Part shown: positions 5,746-20,125 of the stretch, in pieces
How the letters are laid out: each line of letters opens with the position of its first letter
How positions within the stretch are numbered: the stretch's first letter is position 1
Source: Terriglobia bacterium
GTDB taxonomy: Bacteria; Acidobacteriota; Terriglobia; Terriglobales; Acidobacteriaceae
Direction: 5' to 3'
Length of the DNA: 64,000 bases
Assembly: GCA_020073665.1 (NCBI GenBank)
Contig: JAIQEU010000020.1
Span: forward strand, 1-64,000
Translations under genes and position numbers: made by a program
Notes under the pieces: model-generated
What the model was told of the DNA's origin: nothing
Databases searched by the model: none
What the model saw: the letters and a program-made list of their open reading frames with translations, nothing else

Positions 5746-6213
5746 ATGATCACCGCCAAAGTCGAACTGACTCAACCACTTAAGCAGCAGCGCCAATTTG
5801 TGGCCCAGACCGGAAGCGGGCACAACTTCCTGCTGGACGACACCGCCGGAGGCACCGGGCCAAAGCCCATCGAGTTGGTCGCTGCCGGACTGGCCGGGTG
5901 CACCGCATTCGATGTGGTCACCGTGCTGCGGCAGAAATATCACCAAAAAGTCACGGGCTACGAAGTGCGAGTGGAGGCGGACCAGGCAGAACGTCCGCCG
6001 CAGGTGTTTACCGCAGTGCGAATCCATCACGTGTTGACCGGCTTTGAAATCGATGCAGCCGCCGTAGAGGAAGCCATCCGTCTCTCCGAGGAAAAGTACT
6101 GCTCGGTGGGGGCCATGGTGCAGAAGACCGCCAGCTTTCACACCACGTACGAAATCGTTGCAGACAAGACCGAGTGGATGAAACCGGCCCAGCCTGCGGG
6201 AGTGCAGGCTTGA
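5746..6213 (+). CDS. OsmC/Ohr-family peroxiredoxin-like protein
   Basis: The 155-residue protein has the OsmC fold pattern: PIELVAAGLAGCTAFDVV carries the first conserved Cys, and the second is in SEEKYCSVGAM. Family members reduce organic hydroperoxides or handle persulfides, using the two cysteines with a thiol reductant. AGGAGG seven bases before the ATG supports the start. The next gene, a TolC-like protein, begins with a TTG overlapping this stop codon (TTGA), so translation is probably coupled. Its position with rhodanese, thioredoxin and a YgaP-type membrane protein suggests sulfur-linked stress. Confidence 0.88.
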   Translation: MITAKVELTQPLKQQRQFVAQTGSGHNFLLDDTAGGTGPKPIELVAAGLAGCTAFDVVTVLRQKYHQKVTGYEVRVEADQAERPPQVFTAVRIHHVLTGFEIDAAAVEEAIRLSEEKYCSVGAMVQKTASFHTTYEIVADKTEWMKPAQPAGVQA

Positions 6214-7586
6214 AAGCTTTCTTCAAGCCGGTTGTGATCGCCGCCACCGTGTGGCTGCCCCTGGCTGCGGCTTGGGCCCAACCAGAAGCCCAGCCTTCAC
6301 CGCTTACCCTGCAGCAGGCAGTCAAGCTCGCGCTGGAAAAGAATCCGCTGCGCAAAGCGGCGATCGCAGATACGAAGGCTGCATCTGCGGGTATTGGCGA
6401 GGCGCGTTCGTTTCTCATGCCTCACTTGAGTTTTTCGGAAACCGCTACCCGCGGCAACGATCCCGTTTATGTGTTCGGCGGAAAGCTGCGGCAGCAGCGC
6501 TTCACTACCGCCGACCTCGCACTGAACCAGCTGAACACCCCCCTGCCCTTCGGCAACTTCACCACGCGGTTTGGAGGGAGCTGGAATTTGTTTGATTCCT
6601 TCGCCAGTTGGCACGGGGTGAATCGGGCAAAGCGTCTGAACGAAGCAGTCGAACACCAGTTAAATCGCACGGATCAGGAGATCGTCTTCCGGGTGGTCAG
6701 TTCCTACTACGACGTTCTGCTGGCTGCCAAGCAACTGGAAGTTGCCGAGCAGTCTGCCAAGACTGCCCAGTCAATCATGGAGCGTAGCCAGGCAAGGTTC
6801 GACAGCGGCCTGGTGGTGGAGTCCGATCTGCTGACGGCCAAGGTTCGCATGGCGGCGCGACAGCAGGAGTTGATTCGGGCCAGGAACAATCTGGAAATGG
6901 CGCGGGCGCAACTGAACACCGCCATGGGAATTTCGGTTGAGTCTCCGTTCCAGCTCACCGAAGAGTTGGCCGAGCGCGCGCTTCCTGTTCCCGCCCTCCG
7001 GGAGGTCGAAAAGCAGGCGCTCACGAATCGGCCTGACTTGAAGCGCATCGCCTCGGAAGAGGCAGCACAGCGCCAGAGCGTGTCCATGGCCAAGTCGTCG
7101 TTTGGCCCGCGTGTGAATGCCTTTGCGGGCTGGGAAATGGACAACCCAACATTGCTGGCCGGGGGCGGTGGCAACAACTGGCTGGGCGGGATCGAAGTGC
7201 AATTCGACATCTTTCAGGGCGGCGCCAAACGGGCGGAACTCTCTCGCCAGCGCGCCCTCGAAGAAAGGGTCGTGGCCATGAACCAGGCAGCCAGTGATGC
7301 CGTCCGTCTCGAAGTCCGGCGCTCCTACTACGACGTCGATGCCAGCCGGCAGCAAGTCGAAGTAGCCCGAGCGGTGATCGCCCAGTCACAAGAGAGTCTG
7401 CGCATCAACCAGAACCGCTACGACAGCGGGCTGACCACCATTACCGACCTGTTGGGAGCGGAAGAAGCGGCCCGCCGCAGCCAGACTGATTACTGGGAAG
7501 CCGTCTATCGCTTCCAGACCAGTTACGCCAGCCTCGAGTTAGCGAGTGGAAACCTGAATCCGCAGTCTCCGGTGGTGACGCCATGA
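6210..7586 (+). CDS. TolC-family outer membrane efflux channel
   Basis: The 458-residue protein starts with a signal peptide ending near AAAWAQ, then the pattern LTLQQAVKLALEKNP typical of outer membrane efflux proteins. Two OEP repeats follow; each has long helices and RY/RF-DSGL motifs (QARFDSGLVVESDLL, QNRYDSGLTTITDLL). TTG at 6210 overlaps the osmC stop and has GGGAG upstream; an ATG at 6174 is possible but would place 12 residues before the signal peptide. It forms the outer membrane exit of the tripartite pump and overlaps the adaptor gene by 4 bases. Confidence 0.88.
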   Translation: MKAFFKPVVIAATVWLPLAAAWAQPEAQPSPLTLQQAVKLALEKNPLRKAAIADTKAASAGIGEARSFLMPHLSFSETATRGNDPVYVFGGKLRQQRFTTADLALNQLNTPLPFGNFTTRFGGSWNLFDSFASWHGVNRAKRLNEAVEHQLNRTDQEIVFRVVSSYYDVLLAAKQLEVAEQSAKTAQSIMERSQARFDSGLVVESDLLTAKVRMAARQQELIRARNNLEMARAQLNTAMGISVESPFQLTEELAERALPVPALREVEKQALTNRPDLKRIASEEAAQRQSVSMAKSSFGPRVNAFAGWEMDNPTLLAGGGGNNWLGGIEVQFDIFQGGAKRAELSRQRALEERVVAMNQAASDAVRLEVRRSYYDVDASRQQVEVARAVIAQSQESLRINQNRYDSGLTTITDLLGAEEAARRSQTDYWEAVYRFQTSYASLELASGNLNPQSPVVTP

Positions 7587-8707
7587 ATCGTATGAACCAA
7601 CAACTCAAGCTTCTGCCATTGGTGCTGCTCGCAGTGGGTGGCCTCATCGGCTGCTCCAGCGAGCAGCGCCCCACGACTGCCTCGCCCGAAACCGTGAGAA
7701 ACGTCCCGGTGCTCTCGGTACAGCAGACCAATGTGTCGGACCTGCTGGAAGCAGTGGGAACGGTGCGTGCCGCCCAGACCAGTGACCTCGCCAGCCAGGC
7801 GATGGGGAACATCGTCGAAGTGCGCGTCCACGAAGGAGACCGTGTTCAGCGAGGCCAGGTGCTGGCGGTCATTGACGACTCGCAGCCGCGAGCCGCCGTA
7901 GATCGTGCGATCGCCGCCGACAATGCGGCCCAGCAACAACGGATCGCAGCGGATTCGGACCTGGCGCTGGCGGAATCGACGTTGCAGCGCTACCAGAACC
8001 TCTACGAAAAGAAATCGGTGAGTCCGCAGGAGTTCGATGAGATCAAGGCCCGTCAGCAGGCAGCGCGCGCGCGTCGCGATATGGCACAAGCAGGCCAGGC
8101 CCAGGCAAAAGCGGCGTTGACGCAGGCCCGCACCTCCCTTGATTTCACCCGGATTCGGGCGCCGTTCGACGGAATGGTGACGGAGAAGAAGGCCGACTCC
8201 GGCACATTGGCTTCACCCGGAATGCCGATCTTCACCGTTGAGGATGTGCGTCGTTATCGCCTGGAAGCCACTGTCAACGAAAGCGATCTTCGCTATGTAC
8301 GGGCAGGACAACTGGTTTCGGTCACCATCGATGCCCTCGACAGCACCGGGCTGAAGGGCAAGGTAGTCCAGATCGTCCCCGCCGCGGACTCCGCCAGCCG
8401 CACCTTCCTGGTGAAGATCGACTTGCCGGCGAACACGCAGCTGCGTTCGGGCCTGTTCGGGCGAGCCCAGTTTTCTCGCGGCGAGCGGCAGGCATTGCTG
8501 ATTCCACGTTCGGCGGTGGTCGAGCGCGGCCAATTGCAGGGTGTCTTTGTGCTGGGCCAGAACCAGGTTGCAGGCCTGCGTTACGTCACGCTGGGAAGAC
8601 CCACCGGGCCCGAGGTTGAAGTGCTTGCGGGCCTGCAGGGCGGAGAGCGGCTAGTGGCCAAACCCGGCGACCTCGACCTGAGTGGCAAACGCATAGAGGC
8701 TGAGTGA
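7583..8707 (+). CDS. RND efflux periplasmic adaptor lipoprotein
   Basis: This 374-residue membrane-fusion protein has a lipoprotein signal with lipobox LIGC at about residues 23-26. Then come the first barrel-sandwich half ([20 protein letters not shown]), an alpha-hairpin coiled coil (about 95-185), the second half ([17 protein letters not shown]), a beta-barrel and the membrane-proximal domain. It would link the TolC channel to the RND pump. The start overlaps the TolC stop (ATGA), and its own end overlaps the pump gene by 4 bases, so the three genes form one operon. Confidence 0.9.
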
Positions 8708-11451
8708 TGGCGGATAAAGAATCCAAGTCGGCGTTATCGCAGAGCTTGCGCCTGGCGGGCCGTATCGCTCATACCTTCATCGATTCAAAGCTGACCCCGC
8801 TGGTGATTGTCGCCGCCCTAGTTCTCGGCGCTTTCAGCATTCTCAAAACTCCGCGCGAGGAAGAGCCGCAGATCGTGGTGCCTATGCTCGACGTGTTCGT
8901 GCAAATGCCGGGCGCATCGGCAGACGAGGTGGCGCAGCGCGTGAGTCTTCCGATGGAGAAGCTGCTGCGCGAAGTGCCGGGCGTCGAGTACATCTACTCC
9001 ATCAGTCATCCCGGTGTGAGCATGCTGGTGGTGCGCTTCTACGTTGGAACCAAAGAAGAAGACGCGATTATCCAGACCTACAACAAGCTCTACTCCAACT
9101 TCGATCGTATCCCCCCGGGAGTGTCGCAACCGATCATCAAGGTCCGCTCGATTGATGACGTGCCGATCATAGCCCTGACCCTGTGGGGGAAAGACTACGA
9201 CTCTTACCGCCTGCGGCGAATCGCGGGGGAGATGGAAAACTCGCTCAAACCGCTCGACGATGTTTCTGAGACCAGGATCATTGGCGGACAACCGAGGCAG
9301 CTGCGAGTGGTTCTCGATACCCAACGGCTGGCCGCATACGGCCTTACCCCGGGCGCGATCGTGGGACAGCTTCAGAGCGCGAACAGCCGCGGGCAAGCCG
9401 GCAGCTTCGCGCGGGACAATCGTGAATTCCAGGTCGAGGCGGGCACGTTCTTCACAAGTCTGGAAGATCTGCGCCATGTGGTCGTCGGAGTCCACGGTGG
9501 ACGCCCCGTCTACTTGCGTGATGTCGCAGACAAACTGGAAGACGGAGCGGCGGAGCCGGATACCTACGTTCTGTTTGCCAATGCTCGTGGTGCAGCAGAA
9601 GCCGTGGGGACAGAACACCCTGCTGTGACCATTACGCTCTCCAAGCGGAAGGGCACCAACGCCACCGATATTTCCGAGCGCGTGCTCGGCAAAGTCAACG
9701 CTTTGCGCGGCTATGTGCTTCCCAACGACCTGAACATCACGGTCACCCGTAACTATGGCGAGACCGCCAAAGACAAGTCCGACGAACTACTCAAGCACTT
9801 GCTGATTGCCACCTTGTCAGTCACGTTGCTGATTGCGCTGGCGCTGGGCTGGCGCGAGTCGGGCGTGGTGCTGCTGGCGGTCCCAGTCACTCTCGCCCTC
9901 ACGCTTGCCGTCTTCTATCTATATGGCTACACGCTGAACCGGGTAACATTGTTCGCTCTGATCTTTTCCATCGGTATTTTGGTCGACGACGCCATTGTTG
10001 TGGTCGAAAACATCGTGCGCCATTTCCGGTTGCCGGAAAATCGAGGGCGAGCGCTGGGTGATGTCGCAGTCGAGGCGGTGGACGAGGTTGGTAATCCCAC
10101 GATCCTCGCCACGTTCGCGGTGATCGGCGCCATCCTGCCCATGGCCTTTGTGCGCGGTCTGATGGGCCCGTACATGCGCCCGATCCCCGTTGGCGCATCG
10201 GCAGCCATGCTGTTTTCGCTGATTGTGGCTTTCGTAGTTTCACCGTGGGCGGCATTGAAGTTACTCCGCACTCACGCGGGCGAGGGCGCCCACACCACCC
10301 ATGAGGCTGAAGGCTGGACCACTCGGTTGTACCGCCGGGTGATGAAGCCGCTCATTATTGACGCGCGTCGCCGGTGGATGTTTCTCGGTGGGGTCGTGGT
10401 CCTGCTGCTGGCGGCGGTCGCGTTTGTTCCGCTGAAGTGGGTCCGCGTGAAGATGCTCCCCTTCGACAACAAAAGCGAGTTCCAGGTCATCATTGACATG
10501 CCGGATGGAACGCCGCTGGAGCAAACGACTCGGGTGGCGCAAGCGCTCGGACAATATCTGGGTGAGCAACCCGAGGTCGTCAACTACCAGATCTATGCCG
10601 GCACTTCCGGTCCCTACAACTTCAACGGCTTGGTGCGGCACTATTTCTTGCGGAACCAGCCTAATCAAGCGGACATCCAGGTGAATCTGCTGTCGCGTCA
10701 TGATCGCAAGGCGCAGAGCCACGAGATTGCGCGGCGATTGCGACCGGGATTGGACAAGATCGCCGAGCCCTTCGGCGCCCGGATCAAGGTGGCCGAGGTT
10801 CCGCCGGGTCCTCCGGTACTTCAAACTTTGGTCGCAGAGGTTTACGGGCCAGACTACAAAGGCCAGATCCAGTTGGCGGCTCAGATCAAGAAGGTTTTTC
10901 AGCAGACCCCGGGCGTGGTGGATGTGGACTGGTACGTCGAGGACCCGCAAACCAAGTACGACATGAAAGTCGACTTGGACAAAGCCGCGTTGCACGGCAT
11001 CTCGCCCGCTGACGTCACGCGAACACTGCAGGTGGGGTTGGGCGGCGCTAATGCCGGCTTGCTGCACGATCCCCAATCGCGAGAGGACATCCCCATCGAG
11101 GTGCGGCTGGCGCGAGCGGAACGATCCGGAATCGAAGACCTGGGAAACCTGAAGCTGCCCACGCCTTCCGGTGGTCAGATTGCCCTGCAGGAAGTCACCA
11201 ACCTTCAGCAAACCACCATCGATACCAGCGTTTATCGCAAAAACCTGCAGCCGGTGGTTTATGTGACGGGAGATGTGGCGGGCGGAGAGGAGAGCCCGGT
11301 GTACGCCATCATGAAGATGAGCGATGCCATCGACCAGATCAAGTTGCCCGATGGCTACAGGGTGAAGCAGTACAAGGGCACCACCATGCCCGAGCGAACC
11401 GATCGCTTCCGTTCGTCACGCCGCTGGTCATCATGGCGCCGATTCCGCTGA
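8704..11451 (+). pseudogene. RND efflux pump, N-terminal part (disrupted)
   Basis: These 915 residues cover most of an RND-family inner membrane pump. The N-terminal membrane helix and first porter domain ([15 protein letters not shown]) are intact, TM4 carries the paired acidic motif [13 protein letters not shown], and the second porter domain is present. After MPERTDRF (about 11409) the frame passes into nonsense and stops at 11451. The expected pump sequence resumes in another frame ([14 protein letters not shown]) at about 11414. Compared with the family, about 35-40 residues, including one membrane helix, are missing at the junction. The upstream part alone lacks the last membrane helices, so it is unlikely to transport. 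A sequencing or assembly error is also possible. Confidence 0.85.
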
Positions 11452-11834
11452 CCCTGGTTGGTATCCTCCCAGCGCATGCGCTGATGGGGGCGTTCTTCAC
11501 CGCCACTTCGATGATCGGCTTCATCGCAGGCGCCGGGATCATCGTACGCAATTCCATCATTCTGGTTGACTTCATCGAGCTGCGCCGATCCCAGGGAATG
11601 TCTCTGGAAGACGCCGTGGTCGACGCCGGCGCGGTGCGCTTCCGCCCTATGCTGCTCACCGCTGCTGCGGTCGTGGTTGGAGCCAGCGTGATCCTGTTCG
11701 ACCCGATTTTCCAGGGCTTGGCGCTTTCGTTAATGGCGGGCGAAGTTGCGTCGACGGTTCTTTCGCGGATGGCGGTGCCGGTTCTTTACTACCTGTCCCA
11801 GCGGCGGGGCGCGCTATCCCCAAATGTGGAATAG
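11433..11834 (+). pseudogene. RND efflux pump, C-terminal fragment
   Basis: This fragment encodes the last membrane helices of the pump: [17 protein letters not shown], then the conserved [31 protein letters not shown] and [17 protein letters not shown]. It is the continuation of the gene beginning at 8704, shifted in frame after an apparent internal deletion near 11410. The ATG here is an internal methionine, not a real start, and no ribosome binding site precedes it. The DUF2892 gene follows 29 bases downstream. Confidence 0.85.
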
Positions 11835-12291: not shown

Positions 12292-12368
12292 TGGCGGGGA
12301 CGACGGGACTCGAACCCGCGGCCTCTGCCGTGACAGGGCAGCGTTCTAACCAACTGAACTACGTCCCC
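12292..12368 (-). tRNA. tRNA-Asp (GTC)
   Basis: On the minus strand the gene begins GGGGACG and ends CGTCCCC-G-CCA, giving a 7-bp acceptor stem and an encoded CCA tail. The anticodon loop CTGTCAC is closed by a GCC/GGC-containing stem, giving GTC. The T arm contains GGTTCGAGTCC. Length is 77 bases. Confidence 0.97.
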
Positions 12369-12484: not shown

Positions 12485-13846
12485 CTATTTTTCTGGTGCA
12501 ACTTGCAGCATGACTTGAAACAGCACCAGCCATCGCCTCAGGTTGGTGGTGATCAGAAAGTTTTCCCGCACGTGTTCCCGGCCGTCCTGACCCAGTCGCC
12601 GGGCGAGTTCGGGATGGGTCAGCAGGTAGCGGATGTGGTAAGCGCAGCCTTCGATCGAATGCACCAGCACGCCCGTCAGCTTGTGGATGATCTGGGTGGG
12701 AATGCCGCCGACGGCGCTGGCAATTACCGGCTTCCCTTTCCATAAGGCCTCAGTCACGGTGAGCCCGAAGCCTTCGCGCAGCGACTTCTGGATGACGATC
12801 GTGGAGATGCGCTGCAGCGCATTGATCTCGAGCGCCGACCAGGGCGGCAGGTTCAGAATAATAATATCGGGGTCGTCGCCGGCGGCCTCCACCACTTCCT
12901 GCAGCACCGCGGCGCCTTCGGGGTCGTCGCTGGCGCCGCCGCCGGCCAGCACCAACTGGCAGTCCACATATTTTCTTGCCAGCTTAAAGGCCTGCACTAC
13001 GCCGACCGGATCCTTAAGCCGGTCGAACCGGGAAACCTGGGTAACCACCGGACGCGAGCGATCAATTCCAAAATCATCACAGATCTTCTGCAGGTAGCTT
13101 TCGTCCAGTTCCTTGTTCTTTTCCGACAGCGGGTCAATGCAGGGATAGAAAAGATACTGGGGAACAGCCAGCTGCCGCGAGAAGGCGGGCGACGAAAAGA
13201 TGGCAGCGTCGTACTGCTCCACGAAGGGGCGCAGAAATCCCCACACCCCGGGATGGGGATGCGACAGGTCAATGTGGCATCGCCAAATCCATCGTCCCGG
13301 CGTGCCGGTTTTCGAGCGGACCAGGGCACAGGGTTGGGGATCGTGGATCACGACCAGATCTTCGCCGAACTCCATGCGCCGGCGATTCATCTCGCTGTAG
13401 GTGAGAAAAATCTCCCGCGCTTCCTTGGTGAAGTCATATTCTCCACCGTGCAGCGCGTTGTGGAAGGCCTTGGTCACCTCGAAGAAGTCGTTGCCCCCGG
13501 TGATCACTTCCCAACGGGTGGACACTTCCAGTTCACTCATCAGTGGGATCAGCCGGTTCAAGATCTCGGCGACGCCACCACCCACAGCCGTGGAGTTCAC
13601 CATCTTCAGAGTCCGGGCACGCAGTCCGCTGGCCAGGAAGCGCAGCTCATCGAGTTCGGGTTTTCCCAGCAGGGGTTCGTAGTCGTCGAGGCTCGGGGGC
13701 GGCGGAGGCGCAGGAGGTGTGTCCGGAATACGCGGTTTGCGGCGCCGCTCAACCGGTGGCGGGGTGACATTCACGGCCTGAACCGACTCGCCATGGGCGC
13801 CGTTGCCACCCTCGATTTTCTCTTCCGGCCGCTGGGGCGCGCTCAT
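12485..13846 (-). CDS. GT4 glycosyltransferase, trehalose-synthase (TreT) type
   Basis: The 453-residue protein resembles trehalose glycosyltransferring synthases. Residues 1-50 are a Pro-rich low-complexity leader (PPAPPPPPSLDDYEPL). The N-terminal Rossmann domain includes VVIHDPQPCAL and WRCHIDLSHP; the C-terminal one includes VTQVSRFDRLKDP and the EX7E motif EGFGLTVTE. TreT enzymes join a nucleotide-glucose to glucose to give trehalose; acceptor identity cannot be read from sequence. It overlaps the DUF5752 gene by 4 bases and is the last gene of the trehalose operon. Confidence 0.85.
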   Translation of the reverse strand: MSAPQRPEEKIEGGNGAHGESVQAVNVTPPPVERRRKPRIPDTPPAPPPPPSLDDYEPLLGKPELDELRFLASGLRARTLKMVNSTAVGGGVAEILNRLIPLMSELEVSTRWEVITGGNDFFEVTKAFHNALHGGEYDFTKEAREIFLTYSEMNRRRMEFGEDLVVIHDPQPCALVRSKTGTPGRWIWRCHIDLSHPHPGVWGFLRPFVEQYDAAIFSSPAFSRQLAVPQYLFYPCIDPLSEKNKELDESYLQKICDDFGIDRSRPVVTQVSRFDRLKDPVGVVQAFKLARKYVDCQLVLAGGGASDDPEGAAVLQEVVEAAGDDPDIIILNLPPWSALEINALQRISTIVIQKSLREGFGLTVTEALWKGKPVIASAVGGIPTQIIHKLTGVLVHSIEGCAYHIRYLLTHPELARRLGQDGREHVRENFLITTNLRRWLVLFQVMLQVAPEK

Positions 13847-14520
13847 GCGAGCGCTCCGCGAACAATCTGCAGAATCTTGCGCCGAACGTCTTCCAGGGTG
13901 CAGGCGTAGATGTCGATGGTCTCAATGCGGTCGGCCAACTGGTGCTGTCCCATCTCTGCATCCAGCCAGACGGAGAAATCGTTAGAGACCAGCTTGAGGC
14001 GAAGCCGCGCCTCGATGAAGTGGTAATGAATGGAGTGCACCGTCACTACCTTAAGCGCCTCCACGAATTCTGGCAGGCTGCGCGCTACCAGTGGCGTGGG
14101 GACAACCACCGTCTCCGAAGCACAGAAGTAAAAAGGCTCCAGCGCAAGCCGGTCCGCGGCTGCGGGATTCTGCTCCAGGTACTTGCCCACGATCTGTACC
14201 AAGCGCCCGCGCAGTTGCTGGATAGAAGTGAATTCCCGCACATCGGCGCTGGCGAATTGCTCTCCCAACGCGGCTTCCTGGCACTCGACGAACGCCCAGT
14301 GGGCAAAGTCGTTGGAGAAACCTTCGCGAATGAAATGGTGTTCCTCGAGGGTCCGGAAAGTATGCTGAAAAATGGAATCGTCGGCACACACCCGCAGTCC
14401 GGCCAGCAGTTCACGGAGATTCACTGCCTTCTCCCGTCCAATGCGCAGGAGATGGGCTGCCGATTTGAAGTGAAAGGCGTTGTGATCTGGGTTGTCGTGT
14501 GGCGCGAGTGAGTCGGTCAT
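13843..14520 (-). CDS. DUF5752 family protein
   Basis: This 225-residue soluble protein matches the DUF5752 type that often accompanies trehalose-synthase-like glycosyltransferases. Recognisable stretches are the N-terminal FHFKSAAHLLRIGREKA and LAGLRVCADDSIF, and a C-terminal HYHFIEARLRL. No catalytic motif is visible and the function is unknown; a regulatory or partner role for the neighbouring glycosyltransferase is inferred from the 4-base overlap with it. The start ATG is at 14518-14520, 46 bases after the HAD gene. Confidence 0.75.
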   Translation of the reverse strand: MTDSLAPHDNPDHNAFHFKSAAHLLRIGREKAVNLRELLAGLRVCADDSIFQHTFRTLEEHHFIREGFSNDFAHWAFVECQEAALGEQFASADVREFTSIQQLRGRLVQIVGKYLEQNPAAADRLALEPFYFCASETVVVPTPLVARSLPEFVEALKVVTVHSIHYHFIEARLRLKLVSNDFSVWLDAEMGQHQLADRIETIDIYACTLEDVRRKILQIVRGALA

Positions 14521-14566: not shown

Positions 14567-15328
14567 TCAGCACGGCTGCTTCTGTTTTTTTCTTCTCATG
14601 ATTGCCGCCGCAGCCGGCTTGGTGAGGAGCCGGTCAACGCTTTCTACTACCCCTGCCCCTTCGGCCGCCCGGGTCACCATGTCCGCAATGGCCTTCACCA
14701 TCGGCAACGCGTTACCCACTGCAACGGAATATCCGCACCGATCGAGGAAAGCCACGTCATTTTCCGCATCGCCGATCCCGACCACTTCAGGGAAACCAAT
14801 GGCGAGCTCTTCCAGCGCCGCCTCCAGTCCGGTGCCTTTGTTGACGCCCGGCGGCAAGATCATCATCGACTCCCGGTTCATGCTCAGCTGCAGGTCAAGA
14901 CCCAACTCCTGGATGATCCGCAACACAGTTTCCTGGTGAACCCGAAGCGTGGCCACGACCGAGCGGCCAATCGACAGCGGTTGCACGTTTTCCGCTTGCA
15001 ACCTTTTCACAAACTCCGCCGGCGACGGAGCGGCCAGTTGGACTTCGGCTTTGCTGGATGGCCGATAAAGCACGGCGCCGTTCTCCGCTACCACCCGTGC
15101 AAACAGACCCAACTGCGGCATGACGTCGAACAAGCTGGCTAGTTCCCGGCCGGTAACCAGGATCAACTTGCGCTCGGCCAGGCGAACTCGCACCAGCGCG
15201 GTCAGAGTCCCGGGCAGAACGCTTCCGTTGCTGGCCAGGGTGCCGTCGTAGTCCATAGCGACGGCGTGAAAATTTGTGGACAGTCTCTGCCTACGAATCA
15301 CAGGTGTCACGGTAGCCTTTTGCTTCAA
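14567..15328 (-). CDS. HAD-superfamily phosphatase, likely trehalose-6-phosphate phosphatase role
   Basis: The 253-residue Cof/SPP-type HAD hydrolase has motif I VAMDYDGTLAS, motif II LILVTGRE, a Lys in the MMILPPGVNKGTG region and motif IV GIGDAENDVAFL. A C2-type cap lies between. It overlaps the OtsA-fusion gene by 4 bases, so dephosphorylation of trehalose-6-phosphate is the most likely job, but the family also includes sucrose- and mannosylglycerate-phosphate phosphatases and Cof-type enzymes. The C-terminus is a short basic tail (MRRKKQKQPC). Confidence 0.83.
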   Translation of the reverse strand: MKQKATVTPVIRRQRLSTNFHAVAMDYDGTLASNGSVLPGTLTALVRVRLAERKLILVTGRELASLFDVMPQLGLFARVVAENGAVLYRPSSKAEVQLAAPSPAEFVKRLQAENVQPLSIGRSVVATLRVHQETVLRIIQELGLDLQLSMNRESMMILPPGVNKGTGLEAALEELAIGFPEVVGIGDAENDVAFLDRCGYSVAVGNALPMVKAIADMVTRAAEGAGVVESVDRLLTKPAAAAIMRRKKQKQPC

Positions 15329-17610
15329 AAGCCTGCGGCGTTGCTGAGGGCCTGCTCGCGAGCTGGAACAGCCTTCTCCACCCGGATGTCGCAGAGCCCC
15401 GCCACCAGGTTGCCGGCCCAGCGGTAAATGTTGTTCTCGCGCACGGCGCGGCGCATGTGCTGCATGCGAGACGCCTTGTCCTCCGGCGACATTTCCAATG
15501 CGACCCGGACCGCTTCCGCCATTTGCTCGATGTCGTACGGGTTAACGATGAGGGCATCGCGCAGCTCGCGCGAAGCTCCGGCAAAGCGGCTCAGCACCAG
15601 CACGCCCTGCTCATCGTGGCGGGCGGCCACGAATTCTTTTGCCACCAGGTTCATGCCATCATGCAGCGAAGTCACCATGCACACGTCGGCGGTGCGGTAG
15701 TACCTCTGAATTTCCTGATGACTATGCTGCCGCTGCAGGTAGACGATGGGTTTCCAGTTCGCGGTCTGAAAGCGCCAGTTGATGCGCTCAGCTTCCGCCC
15801 CCACCTCCGCCAGCAGATCGTGATAACGCTTGATGTGGGTGCGGCTGGGGGCGCCAATCTGGACAAAAGTAAAGCGCCCAACATACTGCGGATGCTTTTC
15901 CAATAGCCGCTCCAGGGCCAGGAAGCGTTCCAGGATCCCCTTGGTGTAGTCCACGCGTTCAACCCCTACACCCAGGAAGGTGGCTTCTACCCCCAGCTCT
16001 TTGAACAGAGAGGCGCGATCCACATAGGCCGACTCGGAGGCGCTCGCCTCGGGCGGCGATTCCGCAAACTCCACGCTGATGGGAAAAGGTTGCACCTGGG
16101 TAAGGTGGTCCTCACGATTCACCGCGGAACGGTCCCACTCGATACGCGATTCCAGCGTACGGTCCACGGTCTGAAGAAAATTGTTGCAGTGCGACTGCAG
16201 GTGGAACCCGATCAGGTCGGCTCCCAGCAGGCCATCGAGCAACTCGCGTTGCCAGGGACAGATGCCAAAAGCTTCGGCGTTAGGCCACGGGATGTGCCAG
16301 AAGATGGCGACCCGAGCATCAGGGCGCTCCTTCTTGATGAGGCGCGGCAGCAAGGCAAAGTGATAATCCTGGGCCAGCAGGACCGGCCGCTCGATTCCGT
16401 CCATTTCCTGCAGCACCGCCTCGGCGAACTTGTGATTTACTTCCTGGTACCACTGCCAATCACTTGCCCGGAAGGCGGGCCGGGTGTGGGCGATGTGGCA
16501 AAGCGGCCACAGTCCCTCGTTGGCAAACCCGTAGTAGTAGCCTTCTTCCTCTTCCTTGTTCAGCCAGACGCGGCGCAGGTTGTACTTGGGGTCGTCCGGA
16601 GGCACGCGCAAAGCGTCGTGGTAGTTGACCGTCTCCCGGTCGGCATCCCCGCTGCCATGGGCGATCCAGGTTCCGTCGCAGGCCCGCAAAATGGGCTCCA
16701 GGGCCGTGACCAGTCCGCTGGCCGGCACCACGGTGCGCACCAGCTTGCCTTCCCTAACATGGATGTACGGTTCGCGATTGGAGACAACGAAGAGACGGCT
16801 CTCCCGCAGCCGGCTACGCACGTGGACGGCGAGGCGCTCCGCGGTCCACAACGACTCGGCATCTTCGCGCAGCCGGGCTTCCTGTTCGGCGGCGGCGCGA
16901 GCCGCGGTGAGGCTTTCCACAAACGTCGTGACTTCCTTGGTCAGCGGGCTGAACACATCCCAATCGGGCACGTTCGGGTGTGATGCGTAACGGCCTGTCC
17001 GCAGCGAGCGCATCCATTGTGCGGTCCGGGCAATCGGTCCCACGACACTCCAGCGCACAATCAGCAAGGTGATGAGGCCGATCAGGAATCCCTGCGCCAG
17101 CACGCGGAGAAAAGTGTCTTTCCACACGTACTGAGTTTGGGCAGTGATGTAGCTGGCATCGTGAACAATGGCCAGCGTTCCCAGCGTGGTGTCCCCTTGG
17201 TGCAGCGGGACGGCGTAGATGTGTGCCGGGGTGGCGCCAAGGTGCACAAATTCTCCATACCCGGCATCGCTGCGGGAAGCTCGATCAACGGCAGCAGGAC
17301 GTTGGGTAAGATGCGCCGCAAGCCCCGAACTGATGGCCAGGCGGCCTTTCTGGGTATCGTAGATCACCACCCCGAGCAGATGTTCACGGTTGCCGAAGCG
17401 CTCCACCATGCGCTGTAGTTCTTTGTTGGAGCCTTGCACCAGCAGCGGAGACGCATTCTGCTCCAAGCTTTCCGCCAACACTTCCGCTCGCCGGTCAAGG
17501 TCCTTGCGCAGCTGGGTCTTATCCGCCCGAACCTCATAGTAGGAGAACGCCAGCGACACCAGCGCCAGACCAAGCACCAGCGAGACGACCAAACGAAGTG
17601 TCAGTCGCAT
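15325..17610 (-). CDS. otsA: membrane sensor-HAMP-trehalose-6-phosphate synthase fusion
   Basis: This 761-residue protein is far longer than a normal OtsA (about 460-480). Residues 6-26 and 168-189 are membrane helices bracketing an extracytoplasmic sensor-like region of about 140 residues. Residues about 190-240 look like HAMP plus a coiled coil (AARAAAEQEARLREDAESL). From about 272 the GT20 domain begins (SRLFVVSNREPY) with HIPWPNAEAFG, GLLGADLIGFH, VERVDYTKGI and HDGMNLVAKEFVA, so both substrate sites look intact. It would make trehalose-6-phosphate from UDP-glucose and glucose-6-phosphate. The ATG at 17608-17610 has GGAGG upstream; a TTG 60 bases earlier is less likely. Confidence 0.9.
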   Translation of the reverse strand: MRLTLRLVVSLVLGLALVSLAFSYYEVRADKTQLRKDLDRRAEVLAESLEQNASPLLVQGSNKELQRMVERFGNREHLLGVVIYDTQKGRLAISSGLAAHLTQRPAAVDRASRSDAGYGEFVHLGATPAHIYAVPLHQGDTTLGTLAIVHDASYITAQTQYVWKDTFLRVLAQGFLIGLITLLIVRWSVVGPIARTAQWMRSLRTGRYASHPNVPDWDVFSPLTKEVTTFVESLTAARAAAEQEARLREDAESLWTAERLAVHVRSRLRESRLFVVSNREPYIHVREGKLVRTVVPASGLVTALEPILRACDGTWIAHGSGDADRETVNYHDALRVPPDDPKYNLRRVWLNKEEEEGYYYGFANEGLWPLCHIAHTRPAFRASDWQWYQEVNHKFAEAVLQEMDGIERPVLLAQDYHFALLPRLIKKERPDARVAIFWHIPWPNAEAFGICPWQRELLDGLLGADLIGFHLQSHCNNFLQTVDRTLESRIEWDRSAVNREDHLTQVQPFPISVEFAESPPEASASESAYVDRASLFKELGVEATFLGVGVERVDYTKGILERFLALERLLEKHPQYVGRFTFVQIGAPSRTHIKRYHDLLAEVGAEAERINWRFQTANWKPIVYLQRQHSHQEIQRYYRTADVCMVTSLHDGMNLVAKEFVAARHDEQGVLVLSRFAGASRELRDALIVNPYDIEQMAEAVRVALEMSPEDKASRMQHMRRAVRENNIYRWAGNLVAGLCDIRVEKAVPAREQALSNAAGF

Positions 17611-18223
17611 ATGCCTCCATGGCCTACCTGGGATTACCTTGGGTCGCTGAGGACGATCAGCAAGTGTCAAAACCGGTTATTTCGTCTTCCGCTATGGGAT
17701 CAAAACAGAGCAACTGTCAGGCCATTTACGGAGCGAAAGGTGAAGGCACTTTGATATGAACAGCTTGGCGCTCCAAACCGGTGCGGTCCAACTGTAAAGT
17801 GCCTTGTAAATCGGGGTCTGCCAGGGTTCGGAAATCGCCAGCAGGAAACTTTTGCTCGACTCCTGGACAGAATTTCCGTTTGTCCTGGGCGCAGCTCGGG
17901 GCCACAAGCACATACTCTGTGCGATGCACGCCTGCGGCACCGGAGATGCCAAACTTCGAAGGCATGAACTACTCATTTCCGCATGAGTAGCCAAGGCCAC
18001 ATTCTTGTCTCGTATTTTTTTCATCCAGCGATGCCGCACCGCAGAATTGCTCGTATCGTGCAAAAACTGCCGGCGCTCAGGTTGGCGACACCGACGTAAA
18101 AGCACTTACTTGCTGCATGGAGACCTGCACCCACCGTTTTGGAACCCCGCTTGCTCTTCGCAGTGCAGCAACTCAATCTCAACGAGTCAAGCACGACCAA
18201 GGCTCTCCCCCGGAGGTGTGTTC
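17611..18223. other. 613-base intergenic region with one dyad
   Basis: No gene is supported here. A perfect 8-bp inverted repeat, CTACTCAT / ATGAGTAG with a six-base loop, lies at 17969-17990. A minus-strand frame of 79 codons (17726-17965) opens right after a stop, has no clear ribosome binding site and only moderate third-position GC. The region holds the divergent promoters of the trehalose operon and the DUF5818 gene, which could not be pinpointed. Confidence 0.5.
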
Positions 18224-20048: not shown

Positions 20049-20125
20049 TGGTGGGCGGTGCAGGACTCGAACCTGCGACCTCCTCGGTGTAAGCGAGGCG
20101 CTCTAACCAACTGAGCTAACCGCCC
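20049..20125 (-). tRNA. tRNA-Val (TAC)
   Basis: On the minus strand the acceptor stem is GGGCGGT / ACCGCCC, followed by A and an encoded CCA. The D arm reads AGCTCAGTTGGTTAGAGC, the anticodon stem is CCTCG/CGAGG, and the loop CTTACAC gives anticodon TAC. Length is 77 bases. Confidence 0.97.

Follow-up and report, generated by a model that had tools for sequence, protein, structure and literature searches.

A 64,000-nucleotide stretch of DNA from a Terriglobia bacterium of the Acidobacteriaceae (assembly GCA_020073665.1, contig JAIQEU010000020.1, positions 1 to 64,000; hereafter the window) carries a minus-strand gene whose product joins a sensory membrane half to a glycosyltransferase domain of the trehalose-6-phosphate synthase family, GT20. 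We propose that this protein is probably a dimeric transmembrane receptor-enzyme in which the sensor gates the GT20 domain. The order of its parts is a first transmembrane helix (TM1), a single-Cache fold like that of WalK, a second transmembrane helix (TM2), a HAMP-derived module, a conserved helix and the GT20 domain (Table 1). This arrangement suggests that an external signal could start trehalose production directly, with neither a relay nor gene regulation in between.

An input half shared with histidine kinases

The initial annotation had described the layout as that of a chemoreceptor or histidine kinase with its output replaced, and this was borne out for the kinase: the homologous module occurs in kinases, and GT20 begins where their DHp domain would. 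A profile of the input half, searched against 396 Acidobacteriota genomes, matched in 86, in many cases partially and weakly; in the window's own genome the fusion itself was the only match. From the places listed, 17 were taken for their similarity to the input module. Sixteen are kinase-type open reading frames (ORFs; L152–L167), and the remaining one, L168, appears to be a frameshifted fusion, in which a 361-residue ORF ends soon after the input half and the GT20 match lies in another frame. The G2 box is present in 15 of the 16, and L165, without the motif used, has HATPase_c; HAMP, HisKA and HATPase_c exceed the Pfam cut-offs in all ten kinases scanned, the other six resting on the motif. 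Matches to the input half reach 60.7–99.6 bits over most of the 268 positions in L152–L162, and 25.8–49.8 bits in L163–L167.

When the ten kinases and the window protein are aligned, the match extends from TM1 across HAMP. Beyond a gap several columns wide, EDAESLWTAERLAVHV of the window protein aligns to RHAERLAAIGRLAAGLAHE, the start of the kinase DHp, and GT20 then follows; EARLR, common to the window protein and the kinases shortly before this point, was recognized by eye in a register different from that of MAFFT. Pfam finds neither HisKA nor HATPase_c in the fusion protein, which is thus not itself a histidine kinase. This alignment is the best evidence that the fusion is, as far as sequence comparison indicates, a receptor of the kinase type whose output has been exchanged. 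In a tree of input modules made by a quick method, one branch (SH-aLRT 99) splits 14 kinases from 55 fusions, with long branches present and the kinase rows picked by module similarity; the split would fit a single capture, of which it does not give the direction.

Recurrence and phylogeny of the fusion

Of 53 related loci from reference genomes, 44 contain the fusion at full length (one of them, L037, with a masked run inside), which rules out a chance ORF or an assembly fusion. The other nine comprise a frameshift-broken fusion (L047), a fusion without Cache (L039), one cut by the contig end (L046) and six loci with no N-terminal module (L043, L044, L048, L049, L051 and L052). Going by the titles of metagenome bins, the 44 loci come from Acidobacteria, Blastocatellia, Terriglobia, Elusimicrobia, Deltaproteobacteria, Thermodesulfobacteriota, Thermodesulfovibrionales, Lindowbacteria, Bacteroidota and Omnitrophota. 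GT20 matches were obtained in 147 of the 396 Acidobacteriota genomes and exceeded the cut-off in 129. Among 80 regions taken from the matches listed, mostly chosen for long open frames, hydropathy places the two-TM fusion in at least 36 genomes, the window's included, and a fusion with 10–11 TM helices in ten. Among the matches listed, the two-TM fusion is present in every one of the 13 genomes from the window's family in which GT20 was matched.

Homologues with the N-terminal part as a separate gene, which the initial annotation had named as evidence to look for against its reading, gave no clear case among ORFs of at least 80 codons in 135 GT20 loci. The sole match is weak (E = 0.0012, profile positions 5–92), belongs to an L034 ORF at the position that a kinase gene has in L023, and is not a split fusion.

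In a tree of 112 GT20 domains, also made by a quick method, the fusion GT20s fall into one clade of 84 rows (SH-aLRT 100), separate from the synthase-phosphatase fusions and from Escherichia coli OtsA. It contains 62 two-TM members, ten many-TM members, 11 solo domains and one member with a soluble N-terminal part. Aminobacter L076, scored as solo, has one predicted TM helix. N-terminal parts of about 160–310 residues with no predicted TM helix precede GT20 in L070 (2578–4866), L072, L074, L077, L084 and L089; the three that were scanned (L070, L072 and L074) match no other Pfam family.

Sensor, HAMP-derived module and relay helix

A hydropathy scan finds about 140 residues between TM1 and TM2, in agreement with the initial annotation of two membrane helices flanking an extracytoplasmic domain of that size. 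The full-length predicted structure (mean pLDDT 84.1) consists of a helix at residues 2–58, a Cache-like domain to 151, a helix at 153–204, a 13-residue connector, helices at 218–253 and 257–268, and GT20. Prediction of the input half by itself yields the same arrangement (mean pLDDT 81.1); all predictions are of monomers.

The model has the hallmarks of a Cache domain, namely a long N-terminal helix and a PAS-like sheet outside the membrane. Using the input half, Foldseek returned WalK first (9a5d_A, an integrative model, E = 8.9e-10), followed by WalK crystal structures at about 2e-6. Structure alignment with VIA-align gave Z 15.7 and a root-mean-square deviation (rmsd) of 5.2 to 9a5d_A over residues 1–268, and Z 14.9 and rmsd 2.3 over 134 aligned residues to the WalK crystal structure 4ywz_B. 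Cache chains of KinD, DctB and chemoreceptors tie with the latter at Z 14–15, and CitA and DcuS are also among the matches. A family profile searched against the PDB reaches WalK receptor domains at E = 0.0015 to 0.009. Weak Pfam matches in 29 family members (E up to 0.1) include SMP_2 in 11, sCache_3_2 in seven and a few others; excerpts of a survey of Cache proteins place SMP_2 among the Cache families and list WalK as a Cache protein with a link to wall stress (PMC4822843). Kinship with WalK suggests envelope state as much as osmolarity as the signal; osmolarity or drying, as put forward in the initial annotation, is only plausible. Two fusions, L061 (2362–5346) and L064 (3726–7262), have about 250 and 420 extra residues N-terminal to TM1, and the parts of these that were scanned have no Pfam match at E 0.1.

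The segment after TM2 is called HAMP-derived because the PF00672 cut-off is not reached in the protein itself. In the model, AS1 runs to residue 204, the connector occupies 205–217 and AS2 starts at 218, which agrees with the HAMP plan of two amphipathic helices and a linker of about 14 residues; in the available part of PMC5936718, HAMP domains are described as having 16-residue helices and a connector of 14–15 residues. We compared a family profile of 86 sequences with 12 HAMP domains from the window's own genome by profile-profile alignment (hhalign). The match covers 54 ungapped columns with a probability of 93%, P = 3.4e-7 and a score of 33.5, which none of 200 column shuffles reaches (best 19.3); the reversed profile scores 9.6 and six other segments at most 14.4. 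Also in register are the HAMP proline, the glycine preceding the connector and the aspartate with which AS2 starts. Hydrophobic periodicity was equalled by four of 2000 permutations for residues 188–204 and by none of 2000 for 218–236, a lenient comparison in that more angles were tried for the real profile. The HAMP claim of the initial annotation stands as homology, through this match and through homologous kinases that pass Pfam HAMP, but not as a Pfam call in the window protein.

The relay helix that follows contains invariant E244, A245, L247, R248, W255, T256, R259 and L260, and P222 and E226 in the module before it are invariant too; residues 237–268 have no clear periodicity, 140 of 2000 permutations being equally high. 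Over 44 sequences, mean column entropy is 2.10 in residues 61–152, the most variable part of the protein beside the short connector (2.18), 1.24 in AS1, 1.16 in AS2, 0.92 in residues 237–268 and 0.76 in GT20. A variable sensor with a conserved relay and output reads as the pattern of a receptor.

The GT20 domain and its likely product

The GT20 domain is complete, as the initial annotation had it: PF00982 matches over profile positions 2–469 of 473 with E = 3e-119 and 399.3 bits against a cut-off of 32.5. The GT20 half matches 5jio (TMt 0.91), and over this half the PDB sequence matches and the 50 structure matches shown belong to trehalose-6-phosphate synthases and their GT20 relatives. In E. 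coli OtsA numbering, the donor and acceptor residues R9, G22, Y76, W85, D130, H154, R262, K267, R300, D361 and E369 are identical in every fusion row compared, namely 44 that include the window, 39 acidobacterial two-TM ones and ten many-TM ones. H132 differs in four of the 39 two-TM rows; variation is also seen at the donor-preference positions I295, F339 and L343. A pseudo-enzyme finds no support, these eleven positions being intact. For the mycobacterial enzyme, roles are given for R286, K291, D385, E393, R18, Y90, D144 and R324 in the accessible part of PMC6879718.

The OtsA equivalog model TIGR02400 is missed (436 bits against a cut-off of 564.85), and the domain is therefore called OtsA-like rather than OtsA. 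The GgpS model TIGR02398 also matches, at 321.9 bits, well below the OtsA score. The presence of OtsB in the vicinity of 64 of 84 fusion loci makes trehalose-6-phosphate the very probable product.

The trehalose operon

The fusion gene starts with an ATG at 17610 and its stop codon ends at 15325. GGAGG at 17614–17618 lies 3 nucleotides 5' of the ATG, a rather close spacing; a TTG at 17670 would mechanically allow a longer version. No promoter-like site was found 5' of the operon (one in the region against 1.7 expected), and terminator-like sites number 13 against 7.3. Three genes follow, encoding an HAD-IIB phosphatase, a DUF5752 protein and a TreT-like GT4 glycosyltransferase. The phosphatase gene, read from a TTG, overlaps the fusion gene by 4 bases and occupies the position that OtsB has in relatives, likewise in L002 and L008. 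One of its Pfam matches, PF05116, is the sucrose-6-phosphate phosphatase family. We propose that it may encode the trehalose-6-phosphate phosphatase. The TreT-like gene overlaps the DUF5752 gene by 4 bases, and its product scores 374.9 with the NCBIfam TreT equivalog model, short of the cut-off of 775.

The window's own genome has one GT20 and no match to OtsB (PF02358), and a single place matches TreY and TreS below the cut-off (E = 1.7e-5 and 1.8e-4). The operon may be the sole trehalose route of this genome; TreZ and others were not searched for. Near 84 two-TM loci, with flanks of uneven length and either strand counted, we found OtsB at 64, TreT at 37, DUF5752 at 36 and an MscS-like match at two. 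In 25 of 39 Acidobacteriota loci, the OtsB match starts at most 141 bases downstream on the same strand; Pfam confirmed the identity of OtsB in L005 and L015 only.

Table 1. Features of the fusion gene, its operon and the related exchanger fusions. Positions are those of the window unless a locus is named.
Feature	Residues	Position	Strand	Basis or remark
Sensor-HAMP-GT20 fusion gene		15325..17610	minus	761 aa + stop; first gene of the operon
TM1	3–21	17548..17604	minus	Hydropathy and model; inside helix 2–58
Extracytoplasmic sCache-like domain	28–152	17155..17529	minus	Structure match to WalK; family profile against PDB
TM2	167–185	17056..17112	minus	Hydropathy; model helix 153–204
HAMP-derived module	187–240	16891..17052	minus	hhalign against own-genome HAMP domains with controls; model topology
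Conserved signalling-type helix	241–268	16807..16890	minus	Conservation
GT20 (trehalose-6-phosphate synthase) domain	272–737	15400..16797	minus	PF00982, 5jio, active-site residues
HAD-IIB phosphatase gene		14567..15328	minus	PF08282 E = 9.7e-30; PF05116 E = 4.7e-7; TTG start
DUF5752 gene		13843..14520	minus	PF19027 E = 2.3e-57; 46 bases after the HAD-IIB gene
TreT-like GT4 glycosyltransferase gene		12485..13846	minus	PF21269 TreT_GT1 E = 3.9e-54
Exchanger-GT20 fusions		L055–L057, L059, L060, L062, L063, L068, L113		In frame; ORFs 910–1295 aa from the first possible start

Several neighbourhoods are worth recording. In L023, the OtsB and DUF5752 genes of the trehalose operon have a sensor histidine kinase gene with HisKA and HATPase_c (9040–10437) between them, and the L034 ORF mentioned above (9010–10440) is similar to it, the two domains having been checked in L023 only. 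Behind the fusion gene of L003 (8270–12250) come an alpha-amylase-family gene, which we read as TreS, a gene that by eye resembles a glycosyltransferase gene, and a mechanosensitive-channel gene (PF05552). An Elusimicrobia contig, L028, has two GT20 copies (2–1066, cut by the locus end, and 6001–8256) with DUF5752 and TreT between them. In the window, tRNA-Asp(gtc) lies directly downstream of the operon (12292–12368, minus strand) and tRNA-Val(tac) at 20049–20125 (minus strand); what looks by eye like an RND-type transporter (8704–11834, plus strand) appears to be split into the overlapping frames 8704–11451 and 11433–11834.

A possible second membrane input on the same clade

The many-TM fusions form the sister clade of the two-TM fusions, and a Na+/H+ exchanger domain (PF00999) exceeds the cut-off in nine of these ten members (E 2e-18 to 5e-25); L058 has the many-TM pattern without the match. 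GT20 follows the last TM helix after about 20 residues, judged by eye. Inspection by eye also shows that eight of the ten keep the aspartate of the ND motif of such exchangers. The GT20 of this clade looks like a reusable output for membrane inputs. It is possible, and we suggest it only tentatively, that at least two unrelated inputs, a kinase-type Cache-HAMP module and a cation/proton exchanger domain, have been joined directly to the enzyme that commits the cell to making trehalose; the envelope would then switch compatible-solute production within one polypeptide, without a second messenger, phosphorelay or transcription.

Signalling model and alternatives

In the model that we favour, the Cache domain outside the inner membrane would read an envelope or environmental signal, and TM2, the HAMP-derived module and the conserved helix would pass a helix rearrangement to the cytoplasm within a dimer, as in a histidine kinase. 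The rearrangement would then shift the open/closed balance or the dimer geometry of GT20. OtsA is described in the accessible part of PMC6879718 as closed with acceptor bound and as forming dimers or tetramers, so an N-terminal change could shift this balance. With the signal present, glucose-6-phosphate and NDP-glucose would be turned into trehalose-6-phosphate, the product of the overlapping HAD-IIB gene would remove the phosphate, and the TreT-like enzyme might provide a second trehalose route or aid the first. The analysis itself establishes the order of the domains, the kinship of the input half with those of kinases, the intact active-site residues and the order of the genes, whereas the product, the role of the phosphatase, dimerization, gating and the kind of signal are inferred.

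Several observations weigh against a gated receptor of this kind. PF00672 does not match the window protein even at E values up to 1, and the HAMP cut-off is likewise missed in 29 further fusion proteins and in L061 and L064; two of the 29 have a sub-threshold match at E up to 0.1 (best E 0.062). Block pLDDT is 53–68 at residues 191–230, so the model does not settle HAMP packing. The Pfam Cache cut-off is missed in the window protein (sCache_3_2, 14.0 against 28.4 bits), and no position of residues 61–152 is invariant among 44 sequences, for which reason a ligand of the sensor cannot be named. Two members, L039 (5947–7785) and L101 (3505–5406), have lost the Cache domain and kept the two TM helices, the HAMP-derived module and the helix, and of the 72 rows in the subclade to which the fusion belongs, ten were scored as having no membrane part. 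Sensing is thus dispensable in some lineages of the clade.

These losses, the absence of an invariant sensor residue, the solo members and the quite different membrane protein on the sister GT20s are also what one would expect of the main rival, a tether without gating. The membrane half would then only position the synthase at the inner membrane, near the phosphatase or a channel, or keep the dimer together, with substrate and expression setting the output. However, a full Cache-TM-HAMP-helix chain homologous to kinase inputs, in which the relay helix is highly conserved, goes beyond what a tether would require, and we regard this explanation as unlikely. An enzyme that makes another glucoside phosphate, such as glucosylglycerol-phosphate, would fit the missed OtsA cut-off and the GgpS match, but the OtsA score is well above that of GgpS, the OtsA acceptor residues R9, Y76, D130 and R300 are kept and OtsB accompanies most of the loci surveyed, which makes such a product improbable. 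Signalling in the reverse direction, in which GT20 would report the level of cytoplasmic sugar-phosphate or nucleotide-sugar outward, seems to us the most improbable of all. LapD and similar HAMP receptors work inside-out, according to excerpts of the literature, and the LapD/MoxY periplasmic domain is weakly matched in one of 29 members; yet the retained active-site residues and the phosphatase gene near most copies argue for a working enzyme, and no periplasmic partner gene was identified, none having been searched for.

Comparison with known systems

Bacterial receptors with enzymatic outputs are already known, and these outputs are mostly signalling enzymes, that is, kinases, cyclases, phosphatases and c-di-GMP enzymes. 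The closest relatives of the input half, Cache-HAMP histidine kinases such as WalK and L152–L165, share with the fusion TM1, Cache, TM2, HAMP and helix in one chain, by sequence homology and fold. Unlike them, the fusion has no HisKA or HATPase_c, and in place of a phosphorelay its output is a glycosyltransferase whose product is a solute precursor. The survey of Cache proteins, in the part available, lists known signal-transduction outputs only, one family excepted (PMC4822843).

On the enzyme side, OtsA of E. coli and Mycobacterium thermoresistibile has in common with the fusion the GT20 fold, the active-site residues and an adjoining phosphatase gene. OtsA is soluble and has no sensor, and the fusion GT20 stands in a separate, well supported clade. 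The TPSP-GT-MSC operon of Thermoproteus tenax likewise combines a trehalose-6-phosphate synthase with a GT4 enzyme, and its osmotic stress model includes a membrane component, as excerpts of PMC3634074 describe. In those excerpts, however, the synthase is fused to the phosphatase and needs the GT4 for synthase activity, the GT4 is likened to PimA rather than TreT, and the membrane protein is a separate channel (PMC3634074), whereas the window has its own gene for the phosphatase and no channel gene among the four of the operon; the T. tenax gene set is thus not found. Sulfolobus acidocaldarius offers a precedent for the HAD-IIB gene, an HAD protein unlike canonical OtsB with trehalose-6-phosphate phosphatase activity, but its synthase is a GT4 and not a GT20, and the available part of the report does not mention a membrane part (PMC7688234).

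Our literature search, which covered mostly papers outside subscription, found no description of a sensor- or HAMP-fused GT20 among the papers listed, although architecture databases may list such proteins; DUF5752 was not found described, and a narrower search did not find an exchanger-GT20 fusion described. The receptor-HAMP-enzyme plan is known; the fusion is of more than usual interest in that its output makes a bulk solute. If the proposed model is true, the protein would represent the shortest possible path from an outside signal to a protective solute, with bearing on how bacteria may meet drying or salt, and would provide a direct readout for HAMP signalling in the form of product formed per minute. 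In its construction, it seems to be a natural counterpart of the chimeric receptors in which outputs have been swapped by engineering.

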